From Nigrospora sphaerica (Eukaryota; Ascomycota; Sordariomycetes; Amphisphaeriales; Apiosporaceae), in NCBI GenBank assembly GCA_018287875.1, contig JAGVVL010000018.1, forward strand, positions 3,216,501 to 3,280,500: DNA of 64,000 bases, written 5' to 3'. A program made the translations under genes and the position numbers. Every line of letters begins with the position of its first letter. The stretch's first letter is position 1. A model generated the notes under the pieces. The model saw only the letters and a program-made list of their open reading frames with translations, did not search any database and had not been told where the DNA came from. Positions 10,401 through 31,500 of the stretch are shown in pieces.

Positions 10401-11600
10401 CTGTTGGGCTATAGAGTGAACTCTACTGGCCCCCCGTCTCGTACGTCCTCCCCGGGTCCTCTCCTTACGAAGCTCCATCATGTCATTAAGAGGTTGGAGG
10501 TTCTCAGAGCTTGCGATACTTCCCATCAGCGCCCAGCCCCTAGGCCATCGTCGGGAACCGGTTGAGGGTGGCTAATGGGTCGTGGGAGATGTATCCCGGC
10601 TCCTGCATGTCGGCGACGAGGTAGCTGAGTGCCGTCAGGAGCCCAGTACACAAATGACATCAGGCGGGCGGGGGATGGTGTCCTTGATTTTCGTCGTAAG
10701 TCTCTCGCGGAGCCCATATTCCAGAGCTACGTGCTTGTTGAAGAGCCACCTCTTGCGTTCCGAAGACGTGAAAGAAGAGAGAACGGGATGCCTCGGTCGG
10801 TGTGACGTATCAAATTCCCAAAGGAGCAGTCGCTCTGTACAAGCACACATCAGCCGCCAGCCGGTTCCTGTATCTTGGCCATTGCCGCTGCTACTGGACA
10901 TATGGGCAAACCATAAAGCAACAGGCAGCGCGCGGTATGTCTTTCATAGGAGGCTTTCGGCCATCGTCCCTAGCCATCTGGTTGTAGAAACCTGGATGGC
11001 GGCTAGGACGCCATTTGCTGACAACGTCAGCATCGGACTTTTGTACGTGTCGCCGCCTTGCTTGGCTTTGGGTATTGCTGCTTGGGCATGGTGATCCCCC
11101 GGTAGAAGGCTCAATTGGGGCCTCTGGGAAAGTCGGCCGTCTGCACAGGTCGGTCTTCAAAGAAGGCACAGAGCACGATACAGCTCCGGGTCGCACAAGG
11201 GCGAGCAACGGCCCTAGCGCAAGCCAGACCAGCTACGGTGTTTTCCATGTTTGCCAGTATTGGTGCCGCTTTGTCACTGTGAGCTGCCAGTACAAGTTGG
11301 CCAGCTTTGGATCCGGCGCAGTGGAGGAGTATGGGCGCTGATGACTAAGAGACATTGGAAGTTCAGCGGGATCGAACCTGTGGCTTGTTAGGTAGTCTTA
11401 GAGTCAGTGTCCCATGTGCCCATTACCGAGCTCCATCGGGTTGCTCGCTTCTTTCTTGACCCGGGATCTCGGCGCATCCGTGCATTGCAGTAGGAGTTGA
11501 CGGCGGATCTGGACGGAAGAAAAGTGTGGGACGGCGCCGCTTTTCTTTTCCCCGCATATCGTCCGTCCACTCCCACGCGTTGCCACTCTGGCGCATATGT

Positions 11601-11612
11601 TTCCCGCGGGAT
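11601..11612. promoter_or_regulatory. CCCGCGGG palindrome upstream of the regulator gene
   Basis: TTCCCGCGGGAT lies about 110 bases before the chosen start codon of the Zn2Cys6 gene. The 10-base core TCCCGCGGGA recurs at 14407, 16751 and 19393, once upstream of each gene in the cluster. The palindrome contains back-to-back CCG/CGG triplets, the half-site read by Zn2Cys6 proteins. Autoregulation is inferred, not shown. Confidence 0.6.
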
Positions 11613-11718
11613 GGTTCTGCACGCGGATCCTTCTCCTCCTCCCCATAGATGCTCAAGTCCGCCCGCCGGCCGTGTTGGTACCTACTCCGTCGAGCCCGCC
11701 CAGCCAGTACTGCTTGTC

Positions 11719-14296
11719 ATGCCGCCTCCGGATCAAGTGGCGCCGACAACTACACCACAGTCCCTTGCAGAAACGCCGCGCTCGAGCGACGCTCCGACTG
11801 GGTCGTCTCCTGCTTCACAGCCCCCGCCGTCGGCGGGTGGCTCCGTCACCCAGCATTCCCGTCGCAGAGCCACGGAAGCCTGCAGCTTTTGCCGCCGGCG
11901 GAAGGCAAGCCGCCCCCCCCCCCTGGCGCGGGACACAAACAGACGGGCTAATCGACGAGGGGGTTAGATCAAATGCAACGCCGCGCGACCCGTCTGTGCC
12001 ACCTGCCACGTCTATGGGGTTGATTGCACCTACGAGCCCATTGGCGAGCACGCGAAGCAGACGGGCCGCCAGCGCCATCGCGCTGCCAAACGCCGGCCCG
12101 GGGGCCCGGCCCGGGACCGATCGCAGCCCCACGGCCTCCCCGGTCCGCAAAGCCCCGGGACCGCCGCCGTCGACAAGGCCCGCGACGGCCCCGACGACGG
12201 CACCCGGGTCCAGACCGACCAGGCCGGCGTCGCCCGCATCATGCTGACGGCCGAGGGCGTGTCGAGCTACCACAGCCGCACCAGCACCCTGTTCGAGGAG
12301 AGCGTCCCCGAGCGCCCGGTAGAGAGCGAGGCCCGCCCGCGTGTTCCCGAAGACTGGGTAGAGCGCGGCCTGGTCGCCGAGGCGGCCAAACAGCGCCAGT
12401 TAGAGACCATTAACTTCCGGCAGGGCAAGCTGGACTTTGACGGCGTGGATCCCGACCTCGGGATGCATCTTCTCATGATCCATTGGAACCGCCAGCACCA
12501 CTCCTTCCTCATAACGTACCGCCCGGCCTTCATGCGGGACATGGCATCGGGGGGCCCGTACTTCTCCAAGCTGCTGCTCAACGCCATTTACTTCGGCGCC
12601 GCCAAGTTCAGCCCGCGGCTCGAGGTGCGCAAAGACCCCGACGACGTGCGCACGGCGGGTTGGAGGTTTCGTAGCCGGGTGCGCGAGCTGTTGGGCGGCG
12701 CGCTGGACTGCAGCAGCATCACGACGATCCAGGCCCTGCTGCAGATGACCAACTCGCTCTTCGCGCTGGGGGACGAGCGGAGCGCGGCCTGGCTGTACGC
12801 GGGCCTGGCGTTCCGCATGATCGTGGACCTCGGCATACACGTGGACCTGACGCACACGGGCCGCTTCTCCGACGAGGACCTCGAGATCCGGCGCCGCATC
12901 TTTTGGGGCGCCTTCGTCGTCGACAAGATGCAGAGCCTCTACCAGGGGCGCCCCGTCACCCTGAAAGACAGCGACGCCATCGTGCCCCTCAAGTTCCTCG
13001 ACACGTTCGAGGAGCTCGAGTCCTGGCAGCCTTTCGCCTACTCGCCGCAGACCCTGGTGTGCTCCGAGTCGCCCGCCTACAGCGTCTCGACCTTCACCGC
13101 CCTCTGCCGGCTGTCCCTTACCATGAGCGACATTTTGGGTTGCATCTACACCGAACGCAGCGTCGATTTGACCACGAACGACTTGGCGAGCACCTTGGAA
13201 AGGCTACAGCGGAAGCTGGATCAATGGGCGACCTCCCTACCTTCGCACCTCCAACTGAATCCCACGAGGTCGCAAGGCCTCGCTGCCCTTCCGCCGCCCC
13301 ACGTCTTCAGTCTCCAGTGAGTCCACCGGCCCCGGCCCTTGCCGAAACCGCGATTGTGGGCTTATGTGAACCAGTGCCATGCATAATGTGCTCATCATCC
13401 TCCTGCACCGGCCCTTCGTTGCCGACGGCCATCTGTACAACACGTCCCGTTCCGTCTCGAGGGAGTCGCTCCTGAAGTGCGTCTTCGCCGCGTCGGCCAT
13501 CTGCAGCAATCTTCGCCTGTACGATCGAGCCTTTTCGATCCGGCGCGCGCCCTATCTCATCTCGTATGCGACGTACGTCGCCGCCACGATTCTGGTCCGC
13601 ATCGCCGCCAAGCACCGCAACGACGCCAGGGTCTGCGCCGAACTCGCCACCTGCTTGGCCGTCTTCAAGGAAAACCAAGAGACCAACTTCGCCGTCAAGA
13701 AGGCGTCCATGGTCATCGAGGCCCTGATGAAGCGGCTCAAGGTCGACATCGACCCCGCCTTGTTCGAGACGTTGAGCGCCGGAGCGTCCTCGTCCACGCC
13801 GACGTCGGAGCCGCTGCGGCCCCCGGGCGCCAACCCGCCCCCGACGGCGCCCGAGAGGACGCCGGGGGAGCCGCCTTCGAGGCCCGCCGGCGGTCTCGCC
13901 TCGGTGCTGCTGCCCGCGGGCACGACGAACGCGCCGTCCAACATTGTCGCAAACTCTCTCAACACCGAGATGGCCGACATCGACGGCATCATCCAGAGCT
14001 TCCTGCAGGAGGAACACGCAAGCGGCCCCTACCTCGCCGGCAACAACTACAGGGCGCACTGGCCTCAGGAGGAACCGGCCGGCCTGGGAGCCCACGAGCC
14101 TCGGACCCAATTGAGCGAAACAGGGCCCGCAACCGGTTTCGTGGGGCCCACCGAGGCCGTCTATGTTGATCAGCCTTCTTGGTCACAAGGCTGGCAACAG
14201 GGATTCAACGTCGAACCGGCATCGTCGATTGATGATTTGCTGTTCGGGTTTAACAGTACCTTTCCGTTTGCTGTGGACGGCATGTCTTTCCCGTAA
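11719..14296 (+). CDS. Zn2Cys6 fungal transcription factor, likely cluster regulator
   Basis: Three exons, 11719–11904, 11968–13316 and 13375–14296, sum to 2457 nt and encode 818 aa without a break. The zinc cluster spans residues 55–82 with spacing C-x2-C-x6-C-x6-C-x2-C-x6-C (ACSFCRRRK | IKCNAARPVCATC ... VDC). Intron 1 falls inside the cluster and uses a GC donor (AAG|GCAAGC) with a CTAAT branch-like site and TTAG acceptor. Intron 2 (GTGAGT...CCAG) splits the His codon of SLHAMHNVLIILL. A fungal_trans domain covers about residues 215–470 (LLMIHWNRQHHSFLITYR, LLLNAIYFGAAKFSP). The C-terminus is Pro/Ser-rich and acidic, as in activation domains. The start at MPPPDQVAPT is the nearest in-frame ATG that leaves a short N-terminus; an upstream in-frame ATG cannot be excluded. 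The ligand and target are unknown; position and shared promoter motifs suggest control of the next three genes. Confidence 0.9.
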
Positions 14297-14405
14297 CGTC
14301 ACTTTAGTGCATGGCCCGGTTTGGGCACCGACCCCATGACGACCCACCCGATGGAGTGGACGATGGGTTTCCTGACCAATCAGCTTTTGTCCCGTTGGCC
14401 CGTGG

Positions 14406-14417
14406 TTCCCGCGGGAA
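14406..14417. promoter_or_regulatory. Perfect TTCCCGCGGGAA palindrome upstream of the PrpF gene
   Basis: It lies 288 bases before the isomerase start. With its flanks (GTTCCCGCGGGAAG, 14 bases) it is identical to the site before the MFS gene. Apart from a second, weaker copy nearby, nothing else was seen in the 408-base gap between regulator and isomerase. Confidence 0.65.
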
Positions 14418-14457
14418 GGCTAATTGTAGCCCCCCTTATCCAGCTATCTTCGATGCT

Positions 14458-14467
14458 CCCCGCGGGA
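14458..14467. promoter_or_regulatory. Second CCCGCGGG site upstream of the PrpF gene
   Basis: CCCCGCGGGA is a one-mismatch copy of the 10-base core, about 40 bases downstream of the perfect palindrome. Paired sites in one promoter would favour cooperative binding; this is inference. Confidence 0.4.
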
Positions 14468-14704
14468 TTGTTACCAAAATGCCGGATCACGGCCGAACGT
14501 CTGGGAACGTATACGACGATGATGCTAATGAAGAGTGCTTCGAAACTCGGACACGGGCTCCGTACAATCTGGGAGAGCTGCGGGACTTAAAAGCTGGCAG
14601 GCTCCCCTCGGCCCAAAGATGGGCGAGAGTAACCAGTATACCCGTTTCGTTTGAATCATCCCTGCTACCGAACTGCTTGCCACCATTTAGTTCGATTCAC
14701 AACA

Positions 14705-16048
14705 ATGTCAGCAGCAACAGCTAGCCTGTTCCCCCGAGGGGGCGAACACATACAATCGATTGCCCACGCAGCATCGGCCGTCCTGGCCAAGGACAACTTC
14801 CATGCGCTGCGTAGACACGTTCTGCCGTGTACGCTGATGCGTGCCGGCACCTCCAAGGGCTTGTTCATCCACCGGCGGCACCTGCCGGCGCAACCGGCCG
14901 AGTGGCGGCCACACCTGGTCGCCGCCCTCGGGTCGCGCGCCAACGACGCGAGCCAGCTGGACGGCCTGGGCGGCGGCTCGTCGACGACGTCCAAGGTGGC
15001 CGTCGTCTCGCGGTCCCAGCGGCCCGACGCCGACGTCGAGTGGACATTTGTACAGGTGGCCGTCGGCAAGGAGTCGATCGACATGACGGGGACGTGCGGC
15101 AACATCTCGTCGGGCGTGGGGCCTTTTGCCCTGGACGAGGGCCTCGTCAAGGGGCAGCCGGGGTCGAAGAAGGTGGGCGCCCCTGGTACCCCGTCGCGGG
15201 GGAGCGGACGGCGGAAGCTAACGGGGGCGACGCAGATGGACATTAGGATATACAACACCAACACGGACAGCATCATGGTGGAGACGGTGCGGCTCGACGC
15301 CGACGGCAACTACCTGGAGCTGGGCAACCACACGATCCCGGGCGTGCCGACGCCCGGCAGCGAGCTGCGCTGCGCCTACCAGGACCCGGCGGGCAGCATG
15401 ACGGGCAAGCTCTTCCCGTCGGGGCACCGGCGGGAGACGCTGCGGGTGCAGCCGACGGCGGACCTGCCGCTGTCGAGCCCGTTCCAGGTCGAGGCGACGC
15501 TCATCGACTCGGCCAACCCCTTCGTCTTCATCAACGAGGCGACGCTGCCGCCGCTGCCGGCGGGGGGCGGCGGCGACGGCGACGGCGGGCCCGGCGCCGG
15601 GGCCCAGCGGCACCAGCAGGTGGAGCAGGTGCGGCGCGCGGCGGCCGTGGCCATGGGGCTGGCGGCGAGCCCCGAGGCGGCGGCGCGGACGCGCGGGACG
15701 CCCAAGGCGGCGCTGCTGTCGCCGCCCGGCGCCGGCGCCGACGCCCGCGTGCAGGCCTACTCGATGGGCAGGCCGCACCCGAGCTTCCAGCTCACGGGCG
15801 CCATCTGCCTCGCCACCGCCCTCTGCTTCCCCGGCACCGTCGCGGCGGAGCTCTCCCCGGCCGCCGCGGCGACGGCGACGGCGACGCCGCTGTCGTCGTC
15901 CCGCACCGAGCGAAAGGTGCGCGTCGCCCACCCGAAGGGCGTCATCGACGTCGGCGTCGAGCTGGACGCGCACGGCAACGTGGCGAGCTGCTCCGTGACG
16001 CGGACGGCCCGCCGGCTCATCTCGGGCGACGTGTACTACTATGTCTAG
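14705..16048 (+). CDS. PrpF-family isomerase (aconitate/methylaconitate or oxalomesaconate type)
   Basis: A single exon of 447 aa. The start at 14705 (caacaATGtc) gives MSAATASLFP; an in-frame ATG lies 54 bases upstream but has a poorer context. Family marks appear in order: MRAGTSKGLFIHRRHLP (about 45–61), QLDGLGGGSSTTSKVAVVS, the catalytic-site segment TGTCGNISSGVGPFALDEG with Cys131, RIYNTNTDSIMVETV, GVPTPGSELRCAYQDPAGS, LIDSANPFVFI, RPHPSFQLTGAICLATALC and a C-terminal ISGDVYYYV. PrpF proteins have the diaminopimelate-epimerase fold and move a double bond or proton in unsaturated carboxylates; members include methylaconitate isomerase, 4-oxalomesaconate tautomerase (GalD) and the fungal aconitate isomerase Adi1. 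Gly/Asp- and Ala-rich insertions around residues 290–310 are unusual but in frame. The substrate cannot be read from the sequence; the neighbouring tricarboxylate carrier makes an aconitate-type substrate attractive. Confidence 0.9.
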   Translation: MSAATASLFPRGGEHIQSIAHAASAVLAKDNFHALRRHVLPCTLMRAGTSKGLFIHRRHLPAQPAEWRPHLVAALGSRANDASQLDGLGGGSSTTSKVAVVSRSQRPDADVEWTFVQVAVGKESIDMTGTCGNISSGVGPFALDEGLVKGQPGSKKVGAPGTPSRGSGRRKLTGATQMDIRIYNTNTDSIMVETVRLDADGNYLELGNHTIPGVPTPGSELRCAYQDPAGSMTGKLFPSGHRRETLRVQPTADLPLSSPFQVEATLIDSANPFVFINEATLPPLPAGGGGDGDGGPGAGAQRHQQVEQVRRAAAVAMGLAASPEAAARTRGTPKAALLSPPGAGADARVQAYSMGRPHPSFQLTGAICLATALCFPGTVAAELSPAAAATATATPLSSSRTERKVRVAHPKGVIDVGVELDAHGNVASCSVTRTARRLISGDVYYYV

Positions 16049-17320
16049 ACTCTAATTTGTAATGCGCGAACCCCCCGAATAGAATACCGTTAAACTCCAG
16101 TCCTTGGCCGTTTCCTTTAGTGGTGCCGTTGCGACGAGGCCTAAACAGATAGCCCGTTGGATTTGCCGTTAGCAAATCGTATACATTGCTGGCGATGCGA
16201 GCCTTCCGGCATAGAACTTCTGTATCATCTTCCAGAAAGAAGATGAACCCAAGACGTTGAACAGTGTACACCTTTCTAACGCTTCCTTTGTATTGTTCCC
16301 CCGAGTTTCTCCAGTCCCCAGGTTGGTTGTATCACCATAACTCGCCAACTTCCAAAGAGGGACGCAGTCAGTCAACTTTTTATAAGGATTCTGATTGTTC
16401 TAGAAGATAAAACCCAAACACCGCAACCCCGGTAATAAAAGAAAAGCATCCTCTCCAGAGGCCGACTCTCCCCCGAGCCGATTGACGGAACAGGGGCCAC
16501 CCACAGCCTGTCCCCACCCAGTGCACTACAAACCCCACAAGGGCCGTATGTCCCTGCACAGTAGATCTTGAGCGTGTTGCGATTATCCACGCCGCGCAAG
16601 CCGGATTGTCCTCGGGTCTCCTCTGGAGGCAAAACCCCAGATAATTCCGGCATTACGGGACGAAGGAGGGCAAAGTGCGAGATGGGCGGGAGATCCCAGG
16701 CGCAGTTCGGCGGAGGGGCCTTCTGTTCCGTTCCCATGTGGTGGGGGAGATCCCGCGGGAACGAGTAACAAAAGATGCCTTGGATTAAGTACCAACATCT
16801 GGGTAGGTCAGGCCACGGGAACCCGAGGGAGAGGGTTTTGAGATCCATTCGATCCGTCCCTTTCCCCACGCAAACCCCCCACCCAGACGTCACATTCCCC
16901 GAGACAATCGCCCTTCCTTCACTCCCCCTGGTTCATTAGGGACATGATTGCTATCCGCGGGAAGGGAAGGGGCGAACCCGGGTTCGCGGGTCGTTTCGGT
17001 TTAGCCCCGGAAGGTGGAGACCTTGGCCTCCGACGAGTTGGCCCAAACGGGCAATCCCATGTGAATAATACTTCAGCTTGGCGGTTTCTCTCGAGGCGAT
17101 TTCCTCGTAAGTACGTAGAGAGGGGTGAAGAACATTTAGCTTTGGCCTCTTTCCTTATCCTATTGGCAGGCTCAATTCCGTCGTGGCCGCAAGTTTGAGC
17201 CCTTTCGTGCGTGGAAACCAGTCCCTCCCGAATAGACAAAGAAAGACCGCCGCCACTGCTGCCGACGCACCAAAACTTCCGTGTAAACACTTATCCCCCC
17301 GGCCCAAAACCACACACACA
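16049..17320. other. Intergenic between the PrpF and carrier genes
   Basis: About 1.3 kb holding the isomerase 3' UTR and the carrier promoter. Apart from the palindrome at 16750 and a partial form (TATCCGCGGGAA) at 16952, I see no gene, RNA or repeat. Confidence 0.6.
16750..16761. promoter_or_regulatory. CCCGCGGG palindrome upstream of the carrier gene
   Basis: ATCCCGCGGGAA contains the same 10-base core as the other three cluster sites and lies 560 bases before the carrier start codon. A partial copy sits at 16952, closer to the gene. Confidence 0.6.
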
Positions 17321-18646
17321 ATGGCGACCATTACCGCCGCGCCGACGCCTCTGGTGAACGAAGTCCCGACCCAGCACGCCGCCAGCAAACCCAAGAAGAG
17401 CACTATCTCGCCCGGCATCTCATTAATATCGGGCGCCACGGCGGGCGCCGTCGAGGCCGCCATCACGGTTCGTTTTCTCCAGGAGTTTTGGTTCTCAGGG
17501 GAGAAGTCTTGCTCTGGGGGGGGAGGAAACCTGACTAACACGCACGCGCGCGCGCACGCAGTACCCCTTCGAGTTCGCAAAGACGCGCCTGCAACTACAC
17601 CAGCGGGCGGCGGCGTCGGCGACGGCAGCCGTCTCGGCCCCTGGGGGGCCCTTCTCGGCCCTGATCCTCACGGCGCGCACCGACGGAATCCGTGCCATTT
17701 ACACGGGCTGCTCGACCCTCGTCCTCGTACGTCACCCTTGCCACTCCCGCTCACCTTCCCCCAAAGCCCCTTCCTCCGACGGATGGGCGGCGTTCGGTAT
17801 TTTGTGATATGTGCCGAGAGAACGAGAGAGAACGAGAGAGGAAGAGACTGATTCTTGCTTTTTTGCTTCCCCCAGGGCACGGCCGGAAAAGCGGGCGTGC
17901 GCTTCCTCACCTTCGACTCCATTAAAGCACAACTCGCCGACGCCGACGGCAAGCTCTCGGCCGGCCGCGGCATCATCGCCGGTATGGCGGCCGGCGCTGT
18001 TGAAAGTGTCGTCGCCATCACGCCGACAGAGCGCATCAAGACGGCGTTGTAAGTACCTCCTCCATTTGGTTCCGCCCAAGTGCCCGCCACTGCACCCCGT
18101 CATCACACTTGCGCCTGCCCTCTTGCGAAAAACCCACCGTTACTGACTGCGCGCGCGCGCCCCTCGGACAGGATCGACGACGCGAACGGGCGGCCGGCGC
18201 ACCTGCGGCGGTACAAGGGCGGGCTGCACGCGCTGCGCACCATGGTGGCGGAGAAGGGGGTGCGGGAGCTGTACCGGGGCCTTTTGGCGACGACGGTGAA
18301 GCAGTCGGCGACGTCGGCGGTGCGCATGGGCACGTACAATATGCTGCGGCAGACGGCGACGGCCAGGCAGCGCGAGAACCCCGCCGTCACCTTCGCCATG
18401 GGCGCCGCGGCCGGCGTCGCCACCGTCTACGCCACCCAGCCCTTCGACACGGTCAAGACGCGCACCCAGGGCGCCACCGGCCTCGGCGTCGCCGACGCCG
18501 TCCGTGACGTTCTACGCAATGGCGGCGTCCGCGCCTTCTGGAGCGGTAGCTCCATGCGCCTCGGCCGCCTCGTGCTGAGCGGCGGCATCGTCTTTACCGT
18601 GTACGAGAACGTCGCTTCGGTTTTGATGGGCCTCAAGGGCCGGTGA
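17321..18646 (+). CDS. Mitochondrial tricarboxylate carrier (CTP1/MttA class)
   Basis: Four exons, 17321–17467, 17562–17726, 17876–18048 and 18172–18646, total 960 nt and encode 319 aa. All introns are GT–AG. The three mitochondrial-carrier signature repeats are visible: YPFEFAKTRLQL, ITPTERIKTALIDD and TQPFDTVKTRTQG, each closing an odd-numbered membrane helix of a six-helix carrier. GKAGVRFLTFDSIK and the final RLGRLVLSGGIVFTVYENV match the citrate transport protein group. Carriers of this group exchange citrate, cis-aconitate or isocitrate for another carboxylate across the inner mitochondrial membrane; the itaconate-cluster carriers MttA and Mtt1 belong here. Between PrpF and an MFS gene, a dedicated paralogue that exports aconitate or citrate to the cytosol is more likely than the housekeeping carrier, though that is inference. 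Confidence 0.9.
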
Positions 18647-19716
18647 TGGATGCGATACCCGTGTGCGCGATGCGCGGTCAGGAACCCGTGTGCGTATAGT
18701 TTGTTGATGAGAACGAAGTTTAATGCTGTTGTCCTTCGACGCCGTCTAATGCTCTCGTATTTCGATGCCGCCTTATGCTGTCTCGCCTTTCGCTTTGCTT
18801 GCCAGCACCTTTGATGGCCATAAACAGCTGCTTGAACCGGCGCGTATTGGCTGTTGCTGGAACGCCTTCATAGATTTGAGACATGATCACGAGGTTATTA
18901 CCGTGTTGTCTATACCGTCGTGTCCAACCACCTGACGAGTGTTGGCTTGTCAGACTAGCAAGTAATAAATCGGTGCGCAAAGCCATGGCCGGGCCAGGTC
19001 CACAGGGGACTGATCATCGGTAACTGACTGGGGTCGGCATGCGTTACCCCAGACCCCAGACGCACAGGTGTTATGGACGATGCGGGGCTCGGGTGCAGAC
19101 AAGGAAATGGGATACAGAAGCTCTCTTGCTTTTCCCTGGGTTCGCTTGCATTTCGGCTTGAGTTCGCTTGAGTTTCCGCGTGGGTTCTCTTGCTTTGGGC
19201 TTATCGCCGCTTGCCTTCGCTTGTGGTTTCTTGGCCCGCGGCGTCGTCGTCCCTTGCCCCCGCGTTGTCATCCCTTGGCTCGGGGCGTCGGCACTTGGCT
19301 CGCAAAACCTCGTCCCGATAATTCGGCAACAGGTTTATTATCCCCGTTCAGCGACGATAGACTAATATTTGCCATTTTGTAGTAGCGAACGTTCCCGCGG
19401 GAAGATGACGGCCTGGGGAACTTGGGGTTCCCCGCAAACCCATCCTTGGCCTTCTCCAGCCTCAGCTTGGCATCACGCCAGGAAAAGTCCAGGCCCTGCC
19501 TGGGACTGGAGTGTTTCGACTCTGTTCAGGACACCGAGACTTGGCAACGGCTACCATTCCCATGGTACCACGGTGAAGACCTTCGCGGTCTATAAAGTCA
19601 CCAAGCCCACGGCCAGTGGTCTCTGGGAAGCATATCAGAACCAAGGCCGCAGATTGCACGGCACAGTTCTCCCTTGCATTTCAACAGCCAGTGTAGCGCT
19701 GGATAATCATCCCAAT
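18647..19716. other. Intergenic between the carrier and MFS genes
   Basis: A 1.07-kb stretch with the carrier 3' UTR and the transporter promoter. A T/G/C-rich patch with recurring 'ttcgcttg' words lies at about 19125–19230. The only clear regulatory candidate is the palindrome at 19392. Confidence 0.6.
19392..19403. promoter_or_regulatory. Perfect TTCCCGCGGGAA palindrome upstream of the MFS gene
   Basis: It lies 314 bases before the start codon and shares 14 identical bases with the site upstream of the PrpF gene. Its recurrence before all four cluster genes is the main evidence for function. Confidence 0.65.
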
Positions 19717-21484
19717 ATGACTGACGTCTCCCCACCGCAGCCGTCGGCATCGGCAAAGTCGAGCCTGGACGAAAAGGCTGGCGATGTCAAGCCTGGCTTC
19801 GCGGATCACGTCGAAGACGCGGCCCCCGAAGGCACTCAGGGGGCGTCCGCCGTCGAGATCCAAGCGCGCTTCCCGCTCCTTCGCGACCTCAGCGAAGCCC
19901 AGATGGAAGCGCTGAACAACAAGATGGTGAAGAAGATCGACTGGCGCCTGATGCCCTGCGTGACGGCCATGTTCTTGATGAAGTATGATCGAGGTCCGTG
20001 TAGCGTGGCAAGCGTGTGGTGTGCTAATGAGTGGGCAGTTATCTCGACCGCATCAACGTGTCGAATGCCCGCCTTGCCGGCCTGCAATCAGACCTCCACA
20101 TGAGCGACACGGTCTGGAACGCTGGCATCTCCGTCTTTTATGTCGGTTACCTCATCGGCCAGCTCCCGGGCAACCTCATCCTCGCCAAGTCGAACCCGCG
20201 TTGGTTCCTTCCGACCCTCATGTTGTTGTGGAGTACCGGCACGATTTGCATGCCGGCAATGACCAAGTGAGATCGGCCCCTGAAATATGTTTGGGCAAAG
20301 TAACTGATGGCTTTGCAGTGGCGCCGGCTTCTGCGCGGTCCGTTTCTTCATCGGTCTGACCGAGGCTCCCTTCTTCCCTGCTTTAACTCTCAGTAAGCAC
20401 GCACCCCGTCGCTAGGATTGGCCTCGCACGATAGACTGACCAGCGCAGTCACCTCGTCCTGGTATACCAAGAAAGAAAGTCCCATGCGGATGGCCATCTG
20501 GCACGCGGGCAACACAATCTCCAACATCATATCGGGTTTCCTTGCCGCCGGCATCCTCGAGCACATGGGCGGCGTGGCCGGCATGAAGTCCTGGCAATGG
20601 TTCTTCCTCATCGAGGGTATCGTGTCCATTGCGGTCGCCCTCGCGTCTTACCTGATCCTCCCCGAGTGGCCCCAGAACACTCGCTTTCTTTCAGACGAGG
20701 AGCGCGAGATGGCCCAGTACCGTGTCCTGGTGTCAAACGGCGGCCACGACGAAACGATTGGTGGAACCTGGGACGGCGTTCGGGATGCCGTCAAGGACCC
20801 TTTCACCTGGATGTTTTGCCTTATGCACTTTGCTCTCGTCACCGCCCAGAGCTTCAAGGACTTCATGCCCTCGGTATGTTTCTTTCCCCGTCCTTGACCC
20901 GCCAACTGGCCTATACTGATAATGTGACCTGCCAGATCATGTTGACGTTCGGCTTCAATAAGATGACGACATACCTCATTCAGGCGCCGCCGTACGCGCT
21001 GGCATACATTTCGGCATGCCTGATCGCGTGGTCGTGCGGCCGGACCCAAGAGACGACGTGGCACATCATCGTACCCATCGTGTTCTCGGCGGCGGGGTGC
21101 GGTATCCTCATCGGCACGCTGAACGTGGGCGCGCGTTACTTTGGTCTTGTACTACTCGTCTGCGGCACATACAACGGCCTCAACCTGCAGCTTTCGTGGG
21201 AGACGACGGTGGTGCCGGCGCCGCGCAGCAAGAAGGCGGCCCTCATCGCTATCGCCAACTGCATCAGCCAGGTCAGCCACTGGTTCAGCCCGTACTTCTA
21301 CCCGACCGACCAGGAGCCGTACTACCGCATGGGCGGCGGCCTGCTCATCGTCGGCTGCTTCTTGACGGTTGTCTCGGCCGGCTTGGTCAACTGGCGGGCG
21401 AAGAAGCTGAACAAGAAGCTGGACGAGCAGGAGGGATGGACACCGCATTCGGGCGTCGAGAAGGGGTGGAGATACAAGTACTGA
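19717..21484 (+). CDS. MFS transporter, anion:cation symporter (Dal5-like) family
   Basis: Five exons, 19717–19982, 20039–20266, 20319–20392, 20449–20873 and 20936–21484, give 1542 nt and 513 aa; each junction restores a family motif. After a hydrophilic N-terminus come the TM1/loop signature NYLDRINVSNARL (Asn codon split by intron 1), VFYVGYLIGQLPGNLILAK, NGAGFCAVRFFIGLTEAPFF and the central SWYTKKESPMRMAIWHAGN. The second half holds SWQWFFLIEG, a cytosolic loop with LPEWPQNTRFLSDEE, then six more helices ending near SAGLVNWRAKKLN. This family (allantoate, nicotinate, tartrate and similar permeases) carries organic anions across the plasma membrane, usually with protons. Position and the shared palindrome suggest it moves the carboxylate handled by the cluster, either into or out of the cell. 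The exact substrate is not deducible. Confidence 0.92.
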
Positions 21485-21986: not shown

Positions 21987-24068
21987 TTAATGTAGAACGT
22001 ACTTCTTGCATTCGTGCTTCCCTTCTTGCCACCTACTTACCGCCTCGCCATTCATGTAGCCATGGATGTACGCGTCTCCCACCAGCCTGTATTCGTTTCG
22101 GGGGCCCTCTTTTCGCAATAAAACCGGCGTGGAACAGCCCAGTGGAATGACAACTTCATCGCCCCGTGCCATAGCCCCCGTGCCCATTCCGAGCCCACCG
22201 CCATAAGCAACGAAGAAGCACCGACCCATCATGTGCTCGCCAAAATGAACCTGAATGAAGTCTCTTAGCGCAAGTCCTCCAAGGTCCACTTCGGCGTACG
22301 CATGCTTCTCAAGTTCAGTATCCATGCAAATAAAGGGCAAGCGTTCCGCCAGAAACCGTGAAAATAAATGGTAGCAGACTGAAAACCACTCATCCTCTTT
22401 CTCCTCCCAGGCAGGTGGAAGAATGCCCAAACTGAGGACCAGGCAGAAGAGTTTCTCTTGCGCATCCCTAGCAGGTTCTGGTAAGTCCACGGTGGAACCC
22501 AAGAGAATGGCACGCCACTGTAAAAATGCCATCAGGTAGTCGTTCAGCCTGGCCAAGGCACCTACTGCTATCCCGTGGTCTTTAATAGAGTCAATGTAAA
22601 TTGCTTCGATCTCCAGTTTGTTCAGGTGGCGGTCTTTGAACCTGAAACGCGCTCTGCGTTTGCCGGACGCGTTAAATGTCCTATGCTTTTCGCCTAGTGC
22701 TGCTACTCCGGGCATTTGCGACCAATCCGGTACAAATGAGGGAAAATCTGCTGAGTTGAACCGAGGAGGAAAGTGAATGGCGTCGCATATCACGTCGAGT
22801 TTGCCCGTCGTGTCCAGGATGATATCCACAACCTTAGCGTATACATGCTTAACCAGCCGCTTATAATCAGGCCTCACTTTGTCGCGAAGCTCCTCCGGCA
22901 GGATCCCAAGAATGCCGAATAATTTATCTCGTGGGTCTGCGCAGAGTTTTGGGCGACAACGACGTAAGACATGTAGGAGGTGGCCGTCGTCAGGTTTATA
23001 CCGGGGTGTAGAGATGGGGAGGATGCTGTTGGGTCCTTCATGCCTTAGGACCTGCGACTGGCTGAGCTGGTTATTGGCAGTGGGTCGGCGCTCCAGACGC
23101 GAAGGGAGGTAATCCTTGAACCGACGAAAGACCGTACATGCATCCTGGTACGTTTGCCAAGGAACCATGGTAGTCCCGCAGTATACCATGATTCTCTTCG
23201 CGTTCTGGACTTCTTGAACGACCCAGAGCCTTCTCCAGTAATCTCGCTGGAACAGGCAGGTAGCGGCTGAGATGCCTCCTTCCTCATTGAAGAGGACCTG
23301 CAAAATATCCTCATTGCTCGAGTCAACATACTCTGCGACATTCTGGAGAAAACGCACGGCGTATTCGCTGTTATCTGCTGCCGGTCCCAGCCAAATAGCC
23401 ACCGATTCGGCCCCGGAGTAGATTTTTGTCATAAGCTGTACTTGCTGTGCCCGCTCGACTTGGTCCTCTTGATTGATGCAAAGTGCGTCGGCCCACACCC
23501 ACACAGCCTTATCCTTCTGGCGCATTGCTCTTAGGGCCCCATAAAGGCTGACGGACACTTCCATGCTCGTAGATCCCACCCATAGAAGTTTCGTATTTTC
23601 CGGATCGCCCCAGGCATATGAAATAGCAGTATAGGGCGTTGGTAAGTTAAGCTGATGGGTGGAAATCTCACACCTGACTTGGTGCCCCCGGGTTGGATGG
23701 ATCCTCGCTAGCCTGAATTGCCCTTCACAGAGCTGATCGTATGCGTATAGGTGAACTCCAGTTGCATTTGTGTTGATCGTGGGGGCGTATGTGTCAGATT
23801 GGGGTGCATATCCGGCCGGGGACAGAGCTTCAGATGTGCTGGTGTCTCCGCATCGTGTAATGGCGACGGCTCTGCTACTTTCCAGGCGTTTCGAAAACGG
23901 TATTAAGAAACGAGAATAGCGTTCGAAGATGATCCGAATGTCCTCAGGCTCGGAGACCTGGCTGGCTGAGGGAGAAGACGGTCGAACTCTTAGCGAAGGC
24001 GAGGGCGGCGGGGGGGACAAGGCTCGCGGGTCACGACTCCCCAGAAGCGAGCTTTGGGCAGGGTCCAT
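21987..24068 (-). CDS. HET-domain protein
   Basis: A single-exon gene of 693 aa, starting at the first in-frame ATG (MDPAQSSLLGSRDPRAL). Residues about 1–145 are Ser/Pro-rich and variable. The HET domain spans roughly 146–300: YTAISYAWGDPENTKLLWVG, AVWVWADALCINQEDQVERA, QLMTKIYSGAESVAIWLGPA and RRLWVVQEVQNAK. Downstream are the usual HET-protein landmarks CADPRDKLFGILGILPEE and FPSFVPDWSQMPG, and near the C-terminus GRCFFVAYGGGLGMGTGAMA, VVIPLGCSTPVLLRKEG and YRLVGDAYIHGYMNGEA. HET proteins act in vegetative incompatibility and other nonself responses that end in cell death; most members have no assigned partner. The frame stays open about 33 bases upstream of this ATG with no better ATG. The next gene, divergently transcribed 1.2 kb away, is also a HET gene. 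Confidence 0.93.
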   Translation of the reverse strand: MDPAQSSLLGSRDPRALSPPPPSPSLRVRPSSPSASQVSEPEDIRIIFERYSRFLIPFSKRLESSRAVAITRCGDTSTSEALSPAGYAPQSDTYAPTINTNATGVHLYAYDQLCEGQFRLARIHPTRGHQVRCEISTHQLNLPTPYTAISYAWGDPENTKLLWVGSTSMEVSVSLYGALRAMRQKDKAVWVWADALCINQEDQVERAQQVQLMTKIYSGAESVAIWLGPAADNSEYAVRFLQNVAEYVDSSNEDILQVLFNEEGGISAATCLFQRDYWRRLWVVQEVQNAKRIMVYCGTTMVPWQTYQDACTVFRRFKDYLPSRLERRPTANNQLSQSQVLRHEGPNSILPISTPRYKPDDGHLLHVLRRCRPKLCADPRDKLFGILGILPEELRDKVRPDYKRLVKHVYAKVVDIILDTTGKLDVICDAIHFPPRFNSADFPSFVPDWSQMPGVAALGEKHRTFNASGKRRARFRFKDRHLNKLEIEAIYIDSIKDHGIAVGALARLNDYLMAFLQWRAILLGSTVDLPEPARDAQEKLFCLVLSLGILPPAWEEKEDEWFSVCYHLFSRFLAERLPFICMDTELEKHAYAEVDLGGLALRDFIQVHFGEHMMGRCFFVAYGGGLGMGTGAMARGDEVVIPLGCSTPVLLRKEGPRNEYRLVGDAYIHGYMNGEAVSRWQEGKHECKKYVLH

Positions 24069-25310
24069 CTCGGTGGCCGGTTTGGAAACCTCGACAAACA
24101 CCCTACATCAGCATCGAATAGAATTAGGATGGACTAAGATTCAAGACGGTTCAGAAAAGACTGCCAGGAAACAATCGGAAAGCAAAGAATGTACGAGAAA
24201 AAGAGGGGTACGCATCATCCGTCATCAGGCTGAACGGCCAGCTCGAAGCCCGACTGGAGGCTCACCTCGCTTGCTACGAAGATGACATGCATGGCGAAGC
24301 AGCGCACTAGCATAGATCAGGAAAGCCGTCGCGGCTTTTTCCTGTTTCACAAGGAGGCTTTCCTGGGCGAGTAACGGTGTGTAACGAATGCTATACCTAA
24401 ATACTGCGATACGTAGGGTTTTATGCTAAGTCAGGCTAAAGAGCGTCAGGAACTGATCACTGAACTGCTTGTGACCTAGGAGGAGGTTGGCTGTGAACTA
24501 ATCGACTGATGGCGGAGGATTGACTGAGCTCCCTAATAGAGTCGTTAGGCAATGCTGCTGATGGAGTGGCAACTGGCAGCAGGTGTCGGGCCCGGACCAC
24601 CCGGGTTTCTGGCCATGTGAAGGGGATCGGCCCCAGTCCGCTGATGAAGGCATGCTCCTACAACTACACCCATCGTGCCTCTAGTACCATCGTCAGCCTG
24701 CTCAATAACGATATCTCGATAACTAAATAAGTAATGAGTCCGTCCTTACAGAAAGAACAAATAAAACCCCTATCTCGTCACGCTGAGCGCTATTGCCTCT
24801 TTCAGTACTCACCCAATGTCTCTGTTGCTTGCTTTTCGGTTCCAACTTTGGTTTTCCTTTCATGATCATCGGTTCTCGACCAGCGGGATTTGTTCAAACT
24901 CTGGTGAAGAAGTGCCATCTGCTGGCGACTGGGAATTAACATGAAAGAAACATCGGAACTCCCTGTGCATTGGAAGCGCATCACATCCCGATGTTGGCAC
25001 CGATCTCTCCTGTCCAGCTACTTTGTACAACATGAGATACTCAGAGATACACGACCACCTGCCCGATATCTTCCCGCGTTGGATTGGCGGCCCTGCGAGC
25101 GACATGTGTTGAGTGCCCTCTTATTGCGGACGCAAAAGCAACCATGACCATTCACCTCTCAGCTTCTCGCAATCATGAACGATGCTCCGTGATTTACTTG
25201 CAATTCTCCGTCTACTTTTTGAGCGAGAGATTCTGTACACGGACAAAGAAAGCGACAAGTGTGTGCATGTGGCGATACCGGGGGTTTGGCAAAGCCTACC
25301 GTTAGCCACC
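24069..25310. other. Divergent promoter region between two HET genes
   Basis: A 1.24-kb shared upstream region, noticeably AT-richer than the flanking coding DNA. No RNA gene or repeat array was recognised. An in-frame ATG at 25182 would extend the next gene by 43 codons but lacks family similarity. Confidence 0.55.
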
Positions 25311-27615
25311 ATGGTGCCCTACGCTCTATCCTACCAATACAGCGACCTCGACCAGTCCCTGAAAGAAACACGAGTCGTCGAGCTTCTTCCCGGTTCTTTC
25401 GAAGAGAGCCTCCGGATCAAAATTCACCATGTTTCCCTGGCCGATGACCTGCTAGTCATCGCGACGCCGCGGCCCGTCTCGCTCGAAGCGCTCCAGGAGA
25501 CGCTTCCACCCGACTGGGCAGCCCGGCAATGCCTCGATGGCCGCTACCTCTTCGAGCGCGTCCAAGACTATGAGCCCGACGATCCGTACGAGACAACATG
25601 GACGCATCCTGTAACCGGTGCCGACCCGAACCTGGGGGAGGAGAACCCCGAGTTTGAAGCCCTCTCATACGCCATGGGCCCACCAGGCGCCGAGGAGGAA
25701 GTTCATGTGCTAAAGCCGTCGGCGCCGTCGACCAGCACATTTGGCTTCAGTCTGGGTTGCCTCGCTATCCGGGCGAACTTGGCCGCAGCCCTGAGGCACC
25801 TCCGCTACCGCGATCGGGAGAGGAGGCTGTGGATCGACGCGCTTTGTATCAACCGGTCCAGCGCCTCGGAGCGAAGCTACCAGGTATACCTGATGCACGA
25901 TATATACCGCCACGCGAGTCGCGTTGTGGTCTGGCTCGGGGCCGAGCGGGACAACAGCAAACTGGGCCTCGCGGTCCTGCGACACCTCGGCGAACAGGCG
26001 CTCTACACCGAGGGCGGGGCGTGGAGGACGAATGTGCCAGGTTGCAGCGACCCGGCGCTGGCGCGCTCGTCGGTGCCGCTGCCGTGGGACGAGTGGACGT
26101 GGCTTGCCGTGACCGACCTTCTACAGCGCCCGTGGTTCTCGCGGCTGTGGTCGTGGCAAGAGGTGCGGCTCGCGACGGCGCACCGCTCCGTGCTGGTCTG
26201 CGGCTACGACGCCCTGCCCCTGGCGCTTTTTCGCCGCGCCATCCTCTGCGCGAGCGACAAGCGCACCCTGCCCGTCGCCGAGATCCGCGGGCTCCTGCTC
26301 GACGTCGTCGAGCTCCTCCTGCCCGCCCGGCAACAGCCCTTCTTCCAGGAGCTGCAGGTGCTCGGCTGGCGCCGCTGCGCCGACCCGCGCGACCGCATCT
26401 ACGGCGCCCTGGCAGCCGCCCCGCCAGCACTGCGCGCTCATTTGCGGCCTGACTACGCCCTCCCCGTCGCCCGCGTCTACCAGCAGTTCTGCCATGTCTA
26501 CCTGGAGCGCCTACGCCGCCTCGACTTCCTCGAGCGCTGCGACCTCGATGCCCGTCACGTCGACGACGGCCCGACCTGGGTGCCCGACTGGTCCGTCCCC
26601 GCCGACCGTACCGCCCGGCTACCCGACGCCGGCGCCTCCTCGCACGCCGCCGGTGCCTCGGCCGCTGCGGTGCGTCCGCATTCAGACGCCCACAACGAGG
26701 TCCTCGAGGCTCTCGGCGTGTGCTGCGGCACCGTGACCTTTGTCGGCGACCCCGCGCCCGCCGACGGCGCCGGCCTCGTCGCCGCCGTCCGCGCCTGGGC
26801 CCGCGCGCCCGGCCTGCAGACCGGCGGGTCCTACGCGCCGACGGGCGAGCCCACCCTAGAAGCCTTGGTCACGCTGCTCGCGCAGGGCCACGTGCGGGAC
26901 CGCTGGCCGCAGTGCCACCGCCTGCCAACCGCGCGGGAAGCGGCGCAGCAGCACGGGCCCACCCTCACGCAGCCGTCGCCGCCGGCCCCCGCGGGCCCCG
27001 CGGCCGCCGCCCTCGTCCGGTTCCTGCGCGTGCGCCACCGCGCCTTCTTCATGACGGACACGGGGTACGCGGGGACGACGGCGGCGGGCCGACCTCGGCC
27101 CGGCGACAAGCTCATCGTGCTGCTAGGGTGCCCCGCGCCGCTGCTGCTGCGCACCGGCCTCTCGGGCCTGCACCGCGTCGTCGGCCCCGCGCACGCCCAC
27201 GGCCTACGCGACGGCGAGGCCCTGCTCGGGCCCCTGCCCCGCGGCTGGCGCGTCCGCATGGCCCGCGAGCACGGCTTCTTCGACCGCCGCCACTTTTTCA
27301 ACGTCGCCTCGGGCCGCGAGACGCACGACGACCCGCGCCTCGGCCCGCTGCCCAACGGCTGGGAGCAGGTCGTCGTCCAGGCCCCCGAGGAGGGCCTTGT
27401 TGTCGGAGAAGAGGAGTTTGGGATGCGGTTTCGGGATAGGTGAGTACCCGCCTTTTGGTAGAGGGTCTCGTGGTGGCCCGCTGAAATTCCGGTGATTGTT
27501 TGCTGACTACTGCCATGGTAGGTCGACGGGGGAACTTCTTAATTCGGATCCGAGGTTTGCCCCGGTAGCGCTCGCAAAGCAAGGTGTCAAACTGGAGATC
27601 TTCAGCCTCATCTAA
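25311..27615 (+). CDS. HET-domain protein with WW-like modules
   Basis: Two exons, 25311–27439 and 27522–27615, encode 740 aa. The start has a near-ideal context (gccaccATGG) and gives MVPYALSYQYSDLD, the usual opening of this class. Between the N-terminal strand (IRLL-like VVELLPGSFEESLRI) and the HET core sits a WW-type module at about 65–100: LPPDW, GRYLFERV, TTWTHPV. HET landmarks follow: FEALSYAMGPPG (the usual W of YAWG/YTWG is M), RRLWIDALCINRSSASERSY, ASRVVVWLGAE, RLWSWQEV, CADPRDRIYGALAAAP and PTWVPDWSVP. Two further WW-like repeats lie at the C-terminus (LPRGWRV...ETHDDPRLG, from about 642; then LPNGWEQV...NSDPRFAP). The intron, gtgagt...gtag, interrupts the second; splicing restores DRSTGELLNSDPRF, which supports the model. 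The C-terminal copies lack the second Trp. A role in incompatibility is known for the family only. Confidence 0.9.
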
Positions 27616-28582
27616 TCTCGGGATCGGTTACGGGAGCGAATCCCTGCCCAAGGTAACCAGAAGCTACTTACCGGCTCTGGGAACAACGCATATTGGTGCT
27701 AATCACACTTTTGGGCGATGCTGTGTACCCTACCTTGAAGAACAGCGGCATAAGTACTTACTCAAGTGCATACGTCGGTAGCTGAGGTCCATGTGCGTGC
27801 GAATGGTACGGTCCTATATGTTTTGAGAACGAATGCCCGGATCTCCCATTGTTCCCTTGAACAGCAAGTGGCCATGGTGTTCTGCCTGCCATCAGCTGCA
27901 GCCATCCTTCCTGGACTGCGCCTTCAAGATGAACCCTTCTGCAGCCGCCCTTGCGAAAGCTAGGATGATGCCGCATGCATACTTCCCGGTTATGATTGGT
28001 CGCTGTCTCTCGTCTCTTTCTTTTCCTATGAAGCCTCTCCTGATAATACATTAAAACCAACAGTGGACGTCCATAATGAACAGCCTTTCTGATTTCGGTT
28101 CTGTGAGGTATATTAGGTAAAATACTTGCCTTTTATTGACATAACGAGAGCTACCCCACTGAGCTCCCCTTCAGTTTTACGGCGGGTCCCCTTGGTCCCT
28201 GCCTAAAACAGAACAAAAGTTTAGCGCGAAGAGCTCTCTCTTCAGGCGCGACTTCCACCTCTGCCAAACTTTCGCGTTCGGCCGGGTTGCCAGGGCCACT
28301 TCTAATCCGACTTCTCTCCTTCCCACGGTCACCCTTGATTTCAGACTCGAGAACGGTTTCGTGGTGATCGCCTTGCCCTACAGCATGAGCTGGTGTCCTC
28401 GACCCCTCTACTAAGCGTAACCGACACCTTTCACGACCACTGTACGATGCGACGAGGATCCGAATAGTTCGTTCCTGATACCCATATTGCGCCATCCCCT
28501 CTCGACACCCCGGACGTTACGCGGACAGCCCTTCTGCTGCGATCAACTCTCCCCAGCCCTCTTATTCTCTGCACCGGTCGAC
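27616..28582. other. Intergenic
   Basis: 0.97 kb upstream of the large nuclear-protein gene. No coding or RNA feature is supported. A short tRNA A-box-like string near 28150 has no matching B box and was rejected. Confidence 0.55.
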
Positions 28583-31500
28583 ATGTCGCCCACGCAGATG
28601 CGCCTGCGCCTGGTGGTGCGTCGAAACTGCCTTCCCGATGCTAACATTGTCTGGCCCATCTCAATTGAGAACGACCCCACCATCGCCAGGCTGGTCGAAC
28701 AAGTCAACGATATTGTGCCCCTCGAAAGCGCCGATTGGGGTCTGGAAGATTATGCTGTTGAGCTTCACGCCCCTGACGGCTCCAAGTTCGAGTGCCTGCA
28801 CTTCCAGCCCATCCGTAGCGTGCTCAAGGAAGATGACCAGGTCTTCATCCGGCCACTGGCGACCGAAGAGATCAAGCAGCGCCGTTTCAGCGGCCGCCAC
28901 CAGATCTCTGCCGATGGCAAGCACCTGGTGGACGGTGTTGCATTTGGCAGGCCCCTGTTGAGGACACCGCGCGGCCGTCCCCCTCTCGACATACCACCGC
29001 GCAAGCGTAGAAGGATCGGCTACGAGGACGAGGACGAGGACGATAATGCTGCGGCGGATGAAGAAGACGAGGATTTGGCCCCGCGGTTCCTCACCAACGG
29101 CGAAGAAGGCCATCGGAACCCTAGAAGCGTCAGGTTTGCAACGGACTTTGACGGCGTTGAGACGGATGAAGACGAAGACCGCGAGGAAGAAGCTACCCAT
29201 AAATATGGTGACCACGACTTGGAACAAGACAACTTTGGCGGAGGGAACTCTTCGGTGGACGATTCAGAGGAAGACAGTTCTGACGACGAAGACCCAGATG
29301 ACAACGTCGACGAAAATCTGGAAGATGAGCTTGAAGACTTGCGCAAAGATGGCGCTGACATGCAAGGTTTCCGGAGGGGTAAAGACGAGCCCATGAAAGA
29401 AGCCCCAACGTCTACACGGGAGCCTGATCTGCAGCCGCTGCGTAATATCGAAATTTTGCAAGCCGCATTCCCCTCTGCCCCCACTGCAGTGTGCGAGCAA
29501 ATACTGCAGGTGGGCAATCATGACCTCAAGTACTCATACGCAACTCTGCTAGCTGCTTTCAAACCCGAAATGCCCGAATCCAAACTTGCCCGGTCATGGA
29601 AGCCGGCAGACTTTGGGAATGGCTCTGCGAATACGGCTTCCGCCCGCACTGAAACTAATGATAGCCTGGGTGACGAGGAAGAAGAGGCCGAAGACGACGA
29701 AGAGGACGAGGTGACGGACTTTGTGAAACAATTTGATCACCGTGGCCTTCCTCCTGGTTCCATCTCATCGGGAACTGCGCTGAAAGCCATGGCCAGCATC
29801 TCTGGTGGTCGCAGCAGCAACACGTTCGATGGCCAGACCAACTCTGCTCCAGCAAATTTGACTGGGAGCAAGAAAATCTTCGACAACGCGGCTCCGGTAG
29901 AAGACGAGGATACCTCCAGCAGTGGCACATCTTCGACTTCAAGTTCAGACGAGGACGAAGGTGACGCAGAGGAGGATTCGTCGTCGGCAGAAGACTCGTC
30001 CACTGGCGATGATACTGTCGTGAAGAAACCGCGGCGAGGTCGCAATACCTCGGATTCTTCGGATGAAGATAGCGACAGCGACGATAGCAGTGACAGCGGC
30101 CCGGAAGAAACGAGTTCCAAAGGCGGCGCCAATATTGACCGAGGTCGCAAACGCCACCAGAAAACCAACAATGTATCCGATACGAGCAGTTCTGGTACCA
30201 GCTCCAGCGATGCAGAGTCCGCTGCCGACGACGAAACGTCTTCTTCCGAAGAAAGCTCTGGTGAAGACAGTGGTGACTCAAGCTCGGAATCAGAAGAGGA
30301 GATAACGTCGAAGGTTGGCCGAAAGATCCAGCCACCACCGGCCCCGACCTCAAACTCCCGCCCTTCAGCCAGCGCGAAGGGAGCCTCGCAGAGCTCTGAT
30401 TCGACCCAGCAGTCTCAACCTCTTGTTCCTCCCGGAGCTGGCAAAGAGTCGACCAAGAAGCGCAATGAACGGCGCCGCTTGCTTCAGAAGATGAGAAAAT
30501 CCGGCCAAGAGCCTCAAAAATTGGATGTGAGACCTGGGGCGTCGCAGGCCACCGAGAAGGAACTGTTTGAGGCTAAGCGAAAGGCGCTGCTCGACGCAAT
30601 CGCTAGTGGCGGCGTAGAAGTCGGCCCCCGGGGCGATTTCAACTTTGCAGATGAATCCGTGACTTCCCAGCGCAGTGCAAAACGGAAACGAGACGATCAA
30701 AATGCGTCTCAGCCACCTGTCGACGCTGGTGTGCAGCCTGTCGACGGAAGGCCGGACGAGGAGACGGCCGTGAGCCAGGGAAGCAGTTCGCCAAACTCGG
30801 CCCAGAAGCGACGTCGCATCGATCTTGGTGCAGGACGCCGCATGCTTTTTGGGGCGCTGGGGCTTCGCAACCCCAAAACAAGGGAAGACGAGGACAAGCT
30901 TCGGACCAAATTGATGAAGGATGTTCGCCCCCTTGCGAACGCACGCCTGGCAGAGTCGACCTCTGAAACGCCTGCAGCGGAAGACGGAGAGGTGGGGGAG
31001 GAAGACCCCGATGCCTGGCGCGAAAAGATCATATATCGAGCAGTCGAGTGCTGCCAGGAAGGCATTGAGCTCAGCGAGCCACCTTTCCCTTTCGTGCAGC
31101 GATGGGATCCTCAACAGCAAGGCCACTGGTACCACAAGAAGAACAAGCGTGGCGGCGGCAACAAGAAAGCTCAACGCAACCAGTCGCATTTCTACGAGGA
31201 AGAAAGCCGTGGCGGCAAGAAGAGAAAGCATGACCGGCAGGAGGATTGGGAGAATGAGGGCTGCGACAATTCGTACTACGACGAGTCGCAGGCAATGGAA
31301 CTGAACTACGACGACGTGGAAGAGGAGGTGACTGGCAATGACCCGACGGCCGAGGCCAGCCAGTTTACCGACGTTGACGACCTTCCATCGCTGCCTAAGA
31401 ACCTCGGTGATTTGGCCCCTCTCACACCCGGCGAAGTCAAGAAGGGCATGGTCGTCACTTGGAAGCAATTCATCCTCTCCAAGGCGACCAATTGGCAGCC

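Follow-up and report, generated by a model that had tools for sequence, protein, structure and literature searches.

A palindrome common to the promoters of a zinc-cluster regulator gene and its neighbours in Nigrospora sphaerica marks a putative regulon for tricarboxylate use

Four consecutive, co-oriented genes of Nigrospora sphaerica, coding for a Zn2Cys6 (zinc-cluster) regulator, a PrpF-family isomerase, a mitochondrial carrier and a major facilitator superfamily (MFS) transporter, each had one exact copy of the 10-base palindrome TCCCGCGGGA upstream. This arrangement raises the question of whether the palindrome is a regulatory element, which genes it would control, and what these genes would serve for. 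The locus was analyzed within a window of 64 kb (the whole stretch of DNA under study, positions 3216501-3280500 of contig C10), and in the context of the 51.6-Mb genome (33 contigs). The introns, a fungal-specific transcription factor domain and the homologues all pointed to a filamentous ascomycete. The palindrome is probably a functional element of gene regulation, in a metabolic cluster that is conserved, and the four cluster genes probably constitute one small regulon for the use of an unusual organic acid.

Distribution of the palindrome in the window and in the genome

Exact copies of TCCCGCGGGA (given no strand) were located at 11602-11611 in the regulator promoter (within TTCCCGCGGGAT), 14407-14416 in the PrpF promoter (within GTTCCCGCGGGAAG), 16751-16760 in the carrier promoter (within ATCCCGCGGGAAC) and 19393-19402 in the MFS promoter (within GTTCCCGCGGGAAG). 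These are the positions reported by an earlier sequence-only reading, and an exact search gave no fifth copy in the 64 kb, in agreement with its claim that the core is absent elsewhere; the 14-base match it noted between the PrpF and MFS sites was also recovered. Sites started 117, 298, 570 and 324 bp before the chosen ATG of the regulator (11719), PrpF, carrier and MFS genes, respectively. All four were outside the exons of the hand gene models, the non-genic share of positions 11000-21484 being 33% by gene spans. The same reading expected a given 10-mer well under once per window, and 100 dinucleotide shuffles of the window indeed gave a mean of 0.25 copies of TCCCGCGGGA and a maximum of 1, against 4 observed. 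Two weaker copies had been overlooked, both in promoters already having an exact site: TCCCCGCGGGAT in the PrpF promoter (14457-14468, no strand; its CCCGCGGG core begins 51 bp past the first core) and TATCCGCGGGAA in the carrier promoter (16952-16963, no strand). Window sites with at most two mismatches (n=8) were not above chance (shuffle mean 5.02; 8 reached by 16 of 100 shuffles).

The word TCCCGCGGGA was chosen post hoc, and multiple testing was assessed over all palindromic 10-mers. Another palindromic 10-mer, CCGCCGGCGG, likewise had four copies in the window, but these were spread across 13 kb, and two CG-repeat words had six copies each. In Markov simulations (60 per order), a palindromic 10-mer with four copies in 8 kb appeared in 0, 0 and 2 runs at orders 2, 3 and 5, respectively. 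Among 10-mers of any kind, 71 (including TCCCGCGGGA) reached four copies in 8 kb of the window; simple repeats and members of one repeat array made up many of these. Short dense repeats built on AAGAAGCCTT (14 copies in the window) and GGGCAAAGAAGCC occupied window positions 34700-35500.

Genome-wide abundance of the word was unremarkable, and its unusual feature was the position of its copies. TCCCGCGGGA occurred 79 times in the 51.6 Mb (106 for the reversed control). The 12-mer TTCCCGCGGGAA occurred 4 times (reversed control 6), with 2 copies in the window and 3 in five promoters, i.e., those of the cluster and that of an unlinked sugar-porter gene described below; allowing one mismatch, it occurred 129 times (reversed control 172). 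Counts were 9 and 8 for TCCCGCGGGAAS (reversed controls 11 and 15) and 283 and 282 for CCCGCGGGA (reversed controls 486 and 504). No genome-wide enrichment of the motif over reversed controls was obtained, with the sole exception of WTCCCGCGGGAW (15 copies against 7; 4 in the window and 6 in the five promoters). Genome clusters of four TCCCGCGGGA in 7.8 kb were expected about 2e-5 times, against the four copies present in 7.8 kb at this locus. The pair pattern CCCGCGGG N100-130 CCCGCGGG was found in two other places genome-wide, a number equal to that of the control, and one of these was in an apparent tandem repeat.

Every member of the cluster therefore has upstream a shared site that is rare in the genome and concentrated here, which bears out that part of the earlier proposal; with 75 of the 79 10-mers elsewhere, the 10-mer alone does not define a regulon. 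Because of these 75 copies, and because the fourth exact 12-mer (C1:8483554) was within an apparent exon of a FAD monooxygenase gene, the motif is insufficient by itself to mark targets. The nine WTCCCGCGGGAW sites beyond the five promoters were inspected for open frames and Pfam matches. Four of them (L009, L010, L012 and L014) are probably coding, as displayed by a Pfam match in the same frame, and L005 is probably coding from reading of the sequence; the others were L011, L013, L018 and L019. At L011 (C7:2288348), ATCCCGCGGGAT precedes a glycoside hydrolase family 31 (GH31 glucosidase) frame by about 360 bp, possibly a further target, possibly chance. An open frame across a site was in itself uninformative, since each of the five promoter sites inspected is likewise crossed by one (138 to 273 aa), the one across the MFS promoter site being an open upstream extension of exon 1. 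Of the 64 10-mer sites (out of 79) outside the 15 WTCCCGCGGGAW, frames were inspected at four (L001, L002, L003 and L029).

The cluster genes and an unlinked sugar-porter gene

The regulator gene (hand gene model, forward strand; exons 11719-11904, 11968-13316 and 13375-14296) encoded an 818-aa protein with Zn_clus (41.6 bits, cut-off 21) and Fungal_trans (109.8 bits, cut-off 23) domains, both above their Pfam cut-offs, so that the description of the four genes as headed by a Zn2Cys6 regulator holds. The protein displayed six spaced cysteines, the zinc cluster was well conserved among homologues, and the best match had 61% identity over 95% of the query. Intron 1 (window 11905-11967) interrupts the part of the gene that encodes the zinc cluster and is apparently of the GC-AG kind. 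An in-frame ATG at 11611 overlapped the regulator palindrome, and another, at 19405, directly followed the MFS palindrome. The start at 11719 was preferred over 11611 because regulator homologues have short N-termini, and the MFS start at 19717 over 19405 because the resulting 513 aa fits the homologues (mostly about 490-518 aa); with the earlier starts, the regulator and MFS sites would touch or immediately precede coding sequence.

The PrpF gene (14705-16048, forward strand, single exon) encoded a 447-aa protein of the PrpF family (PF04303, 259 bits). The catalytic lysine (residue 97, in TSK) and cysteine (residue 131, in CGN) of the family were present, in alignment columns common to the Mii and LigU chains, and these two residues would correspond to K73 and C107 of S. 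oneidensis PrpF, as given in an excerpt of the published description. LigU chains were among the top PDB matches. Against NCBIfam, the protein scored 254 bits with the 4-oxalomesaconate (OMA) tautomerase model (cut-off 440) and 170 bits with the PrpF model (cut-off 441), both being equivalog models built for prokaryotes, for which a fungal score below cut-off is a weak test. The substrate is not fixed by these comparisons, because the nearest curated models score below cut-off. No Ustilago protein was found among the best 120 of 3048 PrpF matches. A second, multi-exon PrpF gene was located at C1:7422648-7424093; it was rejected as a regulon member, as the 3.1-3.4 kb loci around its exons were without CCCGCGGG and held one partial match, TATCCGCGGGGC. 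PF03972 (MmgE/PrpD; CadA/PrpD family) was found in two genes of the genome, solely on contigs C9 and C33.

The carrier gene (forward strand; exons 17321-17467, 17562-17726, 17876-18048 and 18172-18646) encoded 319 aa with three Mito_carr repeats (183 bits) and no NCBIfam match; from its signature motifs, we take it to be of the citrate/tricarboxylate type. The MFS gene (forward strand; exons 19717-19982, 20039-20266, 20319-20392, 20449-20873 and 20936-21484) encoded a 513-aa transporter (MFS_1, 127 bits), whose best homologues were 76-77% identical. Its best NCBIfam model was TIGR00893 2A0114 (anion:cation symporter type; 189 bits, under the cut-off of 395), a class of MFS comprising mostly importers. 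Directly downstream of the cluster were two HET-domain (heterokaryon incompatibility) frames (21990-24107, reverse strand, and 25179-27440, forward strand), followed by a 1698-aa open frame (28421-33514, forward strand) whose sole Pfam match, DUF7357, is close to the N-terminus.

The third genomic copy of the 12-mer, at C12:226205, was embedded in GTTCCCGCGGGAAG, the 14 bases also present in the PrpF and MFS promoters, and another palindrome, ATCCCGCGGGAT, was 44 bp away. Both palindromes precede, by 386-441 bp, the start codon of a sugar-porter gene on the minus strand (PF00083, 240 bits; TIGR00879, 223 bits over the first 312 residues, below the cut-off of 238). Same-strand pairs CCCGCGGGA N20-50 CCCGCGGGA were found in two places only genome-wide, the PrpF and the sugar-porter promoters, against about 0.05 expected by chance from 283 forward sites and 1 for the reversed control pattern. 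TCCCGCGGGAA was present in all five upstream regions (regulator, PrpF, carrier, MFS and sugar porter), and the five 10-mers found in at least three of them were all parts of the palindrome. In 300 order-2 simulations, any 10-mer reached four of the five regions in 0 runs and three regions in 10, a test that is not blind for the sugar-porter region, which was picked for carrying the site. The sugar-porter gene would thus belong to the regulon. The sequence-only reading had proposed that the extent of the regulon is defined by the motif and comprises the four genes, a claim that is too narrow in view of the same 14-mer and a second palindrome at this unlinked promoter, and of 75 more 10-mers.

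Conservation, proposed pathway and alternative explanations

Gene neighbourhoods were read by hand from locus tags among the 120 matches listed for each of the regulator, PrpF and MFS proteins. Among the matches listed, PrpF and regulator tags were adjacent in all five genomes with a prefix in both lists (Helicocarpus griseus, Purpureocillium takamizusanense, Claviceps africana, Claviceps digitariae and Fusarium decemcellulare). PrpF and MFS tags were at most three apart in four of six genomes among the matches listed, the exceptions being Didymella heteroderae (33 apart) and Aureobasidium pullulans. Regulator and MFS tags were at most two apart in three of five, again among the matches listed, with Exophiala spinifera and Aspergillus spectabilis (tag numbers far apart) as exceptions; in A. 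spectabilis the tag numbers are probably not positional, both entries naming the same longest contig (185371 bases). Gene models fusing the regulator and PF04303 accounted for 20 of the 120 regulator matches listed, and in all six checked of these 20 the regulator part precedes PrpF, the same order as in the window. The neighbourhood of regulator, PrpF and MFS is kept in several other ascomycetes and is not universal. Stray fungal contigs were sought among viral contigs, using first the MFS and then an alignment of 15 regulator sequences, and among prokaryote genomes, using the same alignment; the 4, 34 and 60 pattern matches, respectively, encoded no relative. The earlier view of the four genes as a regulon marked by the motif is partly supported, by one copy per gene, by the thin spread of the site in the genome and by the conserved gene group; its limits are probably wider.

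In Ustilago maydis, cis- and trans-aconitate are interconverted by Adi1, a protein of the PrpF family; its gene accompanies those of an MFS transporter and of the citrate-carrier-like Mtt1, for which the citrate carrier of yeast is given as the match (excerpt of PMC4720413). A small pathway-specific, probably autoregulated zinc-cluster regulon for tricarboxylate use, most probably for the assimilation of trans-aconitate or a similar unsaturated acid, is the likely explanation of the locus studied here. Trans-aconitate is a plant acid and a toxic aconitase inhibitor. The MFS transporter would import an unsaturated tricarboxylate, of which trans-aconitate is the simplest candidate; PrpF would convert it to cis-aconitate, and the carrier would move cis-aconitate into the mitochondrion, where it would enter the TCA cycle. 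We infer this substrate and this direction of flux; import of trans-aconitate or a similar acid is favoured because PrpF, carrier and MFS occur together as in Ustilago, without a decarboxylase and with a symporter-type MFS. An itaconate biosynthesis cluster was considered and rejected, as no aconitate decarboxylase was present among the four genes and PF03972 was found solely on C9 and C33.

The main rival keeps the same regulon with the opposite flux: the carrier would export cis-aconitate from the mitochondrion, PrpF would make trans-aconitate and the MFS would secrete it, a scheme that resembles the first steps of itaconate synthesis in Ustilago minus the decarboxylase. We regard it as unlikely, given an MFS of the anion:cation symporter type (2A0114, below cut-off), whose class consists mostly of importers, and the absence of a decarboxylase among the four genes, with PF03972 on C9 and C33 only. 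In U. maydis, Adi1, Mtt1 and an MFS exporter do work in this outward sense, and the reaction of Adi1 has its equilibrium on the trans side (88:12), yet the exporter Itp1 is given as EmrD-like, unlike the MFS found here (excerpt of PMC4720413).

The same regulon might also handle another substrate, in a gallate-type or other pathway with PrpF as OMA tautomerase, or in 2-methylaconitate isomerisation. OMA tautomerase was the closest NCBIfam model (below cut-off) and LigU chains were among the best PDB matches; however, by Pfam none of the four genes encodes a dioxygenase, hydratase or aldolase, and the aconitate isomerase Adi1 was likewise matched to OMA tautomerase in a table of PMC4720413 (seen in excerpt). 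The two PF03972 genes suggest that the methylcitrate cycle can use PrpD, although this family also includes decarboxylases. This reading ranks after the opposite flux and is improbable as well. A methylcitrate role for the cluster was thought unlikely, given the two PF03972 (MmgE/PrpD) genes elsewhere in the genome.

Zinc-cluster proteins usually recognise CGG triplets in pairs; CCCGCGGG contains an everted CCG/CGG pair with zero spacer. TCCGCGGA is the site of NIT4 and the yeast Pdr3/Pdr1 element. The 818-aa protein would bind, probably as a dimer, to TTCCCGCGGGAA, an everted repeat whose abutting CCG/CGG is flanked on either side by one more C/G, and would act on its own promoter and on those of the PrpF, carrier, MFS and unlinked sugar-porter genes, the five genes being switched together by the regulator in the presence of the substrate. 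Binding, dimerisation and autoregulation are predicted here from the sequence, for a regulator that may be an activator or a repressor. The palindrome could instead be bound by a different factor, such as another zinc-cluster protein, with the cluster regulator using another site; zinc-cluster proteins form a large family and NirA-type proteins bind related cores. This is quite improbable, as the palindrome lies upstream of the regulator gene itself, is concentrated at the cluster and is the sole 10-mer family common to at least three of the five upstream regions. Chance recurrence of a GC-rich palindrome, although any word could have been picked, 71 10-mers reach four copies in 8 kb and the motif shows no genome-wide excess over its reversed controls, is extremely improbable in view of the genome-wide counts, of the one exact site before each gene and of the site pair in the unlinked transporter promoter.

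In the regulon preferred here, an uncharacterised and broadly conserved zinc-cluster regulator gains a concrete putative DNA target and a defined gene set, and the locus points to a fungal route for a tricarboxylate that inhibits aconitase. Titles and beginnings of abstracts of the open-access literature gave no description of such a fungal pathway, which is weak evidence of novelty, subscription papers being mostly outside this set. Nothing combining CCCGCGGG with Zn2Cys6 was found in the open-access literature, and the matches listed for TCCGCGGA or NIT4, and for PrpF with Zn2Cys6 gene clusters, included none on this pathway; the target set of the regulator was not found reported in this open-access material, which gives a weak indication that it is new. 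More broadly, and tentatively, the locus may represent a widely conserved, undescribed ascomycete pathway for trans-aconitate uptake and use, with one zinc-cluster regulator, an extended everted repeat and a second, unlinked transporter of the sugar-porter type recruited by paired sites.

Comparison with known systems

The itaconate cluster of Ustilago maydis (Adi1, Mtt1, Itp1, Tad1 and Ria1) similarly combines a PrpF-family isomerase, a mitochondrial tricarboxylate carrier, an MFS transporter and a pathway regulator (excerpt of PMC4720413). In contrast, no Tad1-like gene was present among the four genes described here, their MFS type differs from that of Itp1, and the regulator is a Zn2Cys6 protein while Ria1 is given as similar to USF2 (same excerpt). 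The itaconate cluster of Aspergillus terreus (cadA, mttA and mfsA) also includes a mitochondrial carrier and an MFS transporter (excerpt of PMC4965889), but PrpF stands here in place of the cis-aconitate decarboxylase, and PF03972 was found on other contigs.

As for the regulator and its site, the nitrate regulators NirA and NIT4 are likewise Zn2Cys6 proteins with an abutting core, the NirA site being CTCCGHGG, with a zero-spaced CCG/HGG core (excerpts of PMC3020322 and PMC5348485), and nit-4 or nirA names were carried by 6 of the 120 regulator matches listed. NirA sites are described as non-palindromic in these excerpts, whereas the sites found here form a longer palindrome around the CCCGCGGG core, and no nitrate genes were present among the four genes. 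The yeast Pdr3/Pdr1 element shares with the present motif the everted CGG repeats (recognition of everted repeats by Pdr3 is named in the title of a work cited by PMC5082525), and Pdr3 controls its own gene (excerpt of PMC5082525), as proposed here for the 818-aa regulator. The motif of N. sphaerica differs from this element by one additional C/G per half, and its targets are an apparent metabolic cluster rather than drug pumps.
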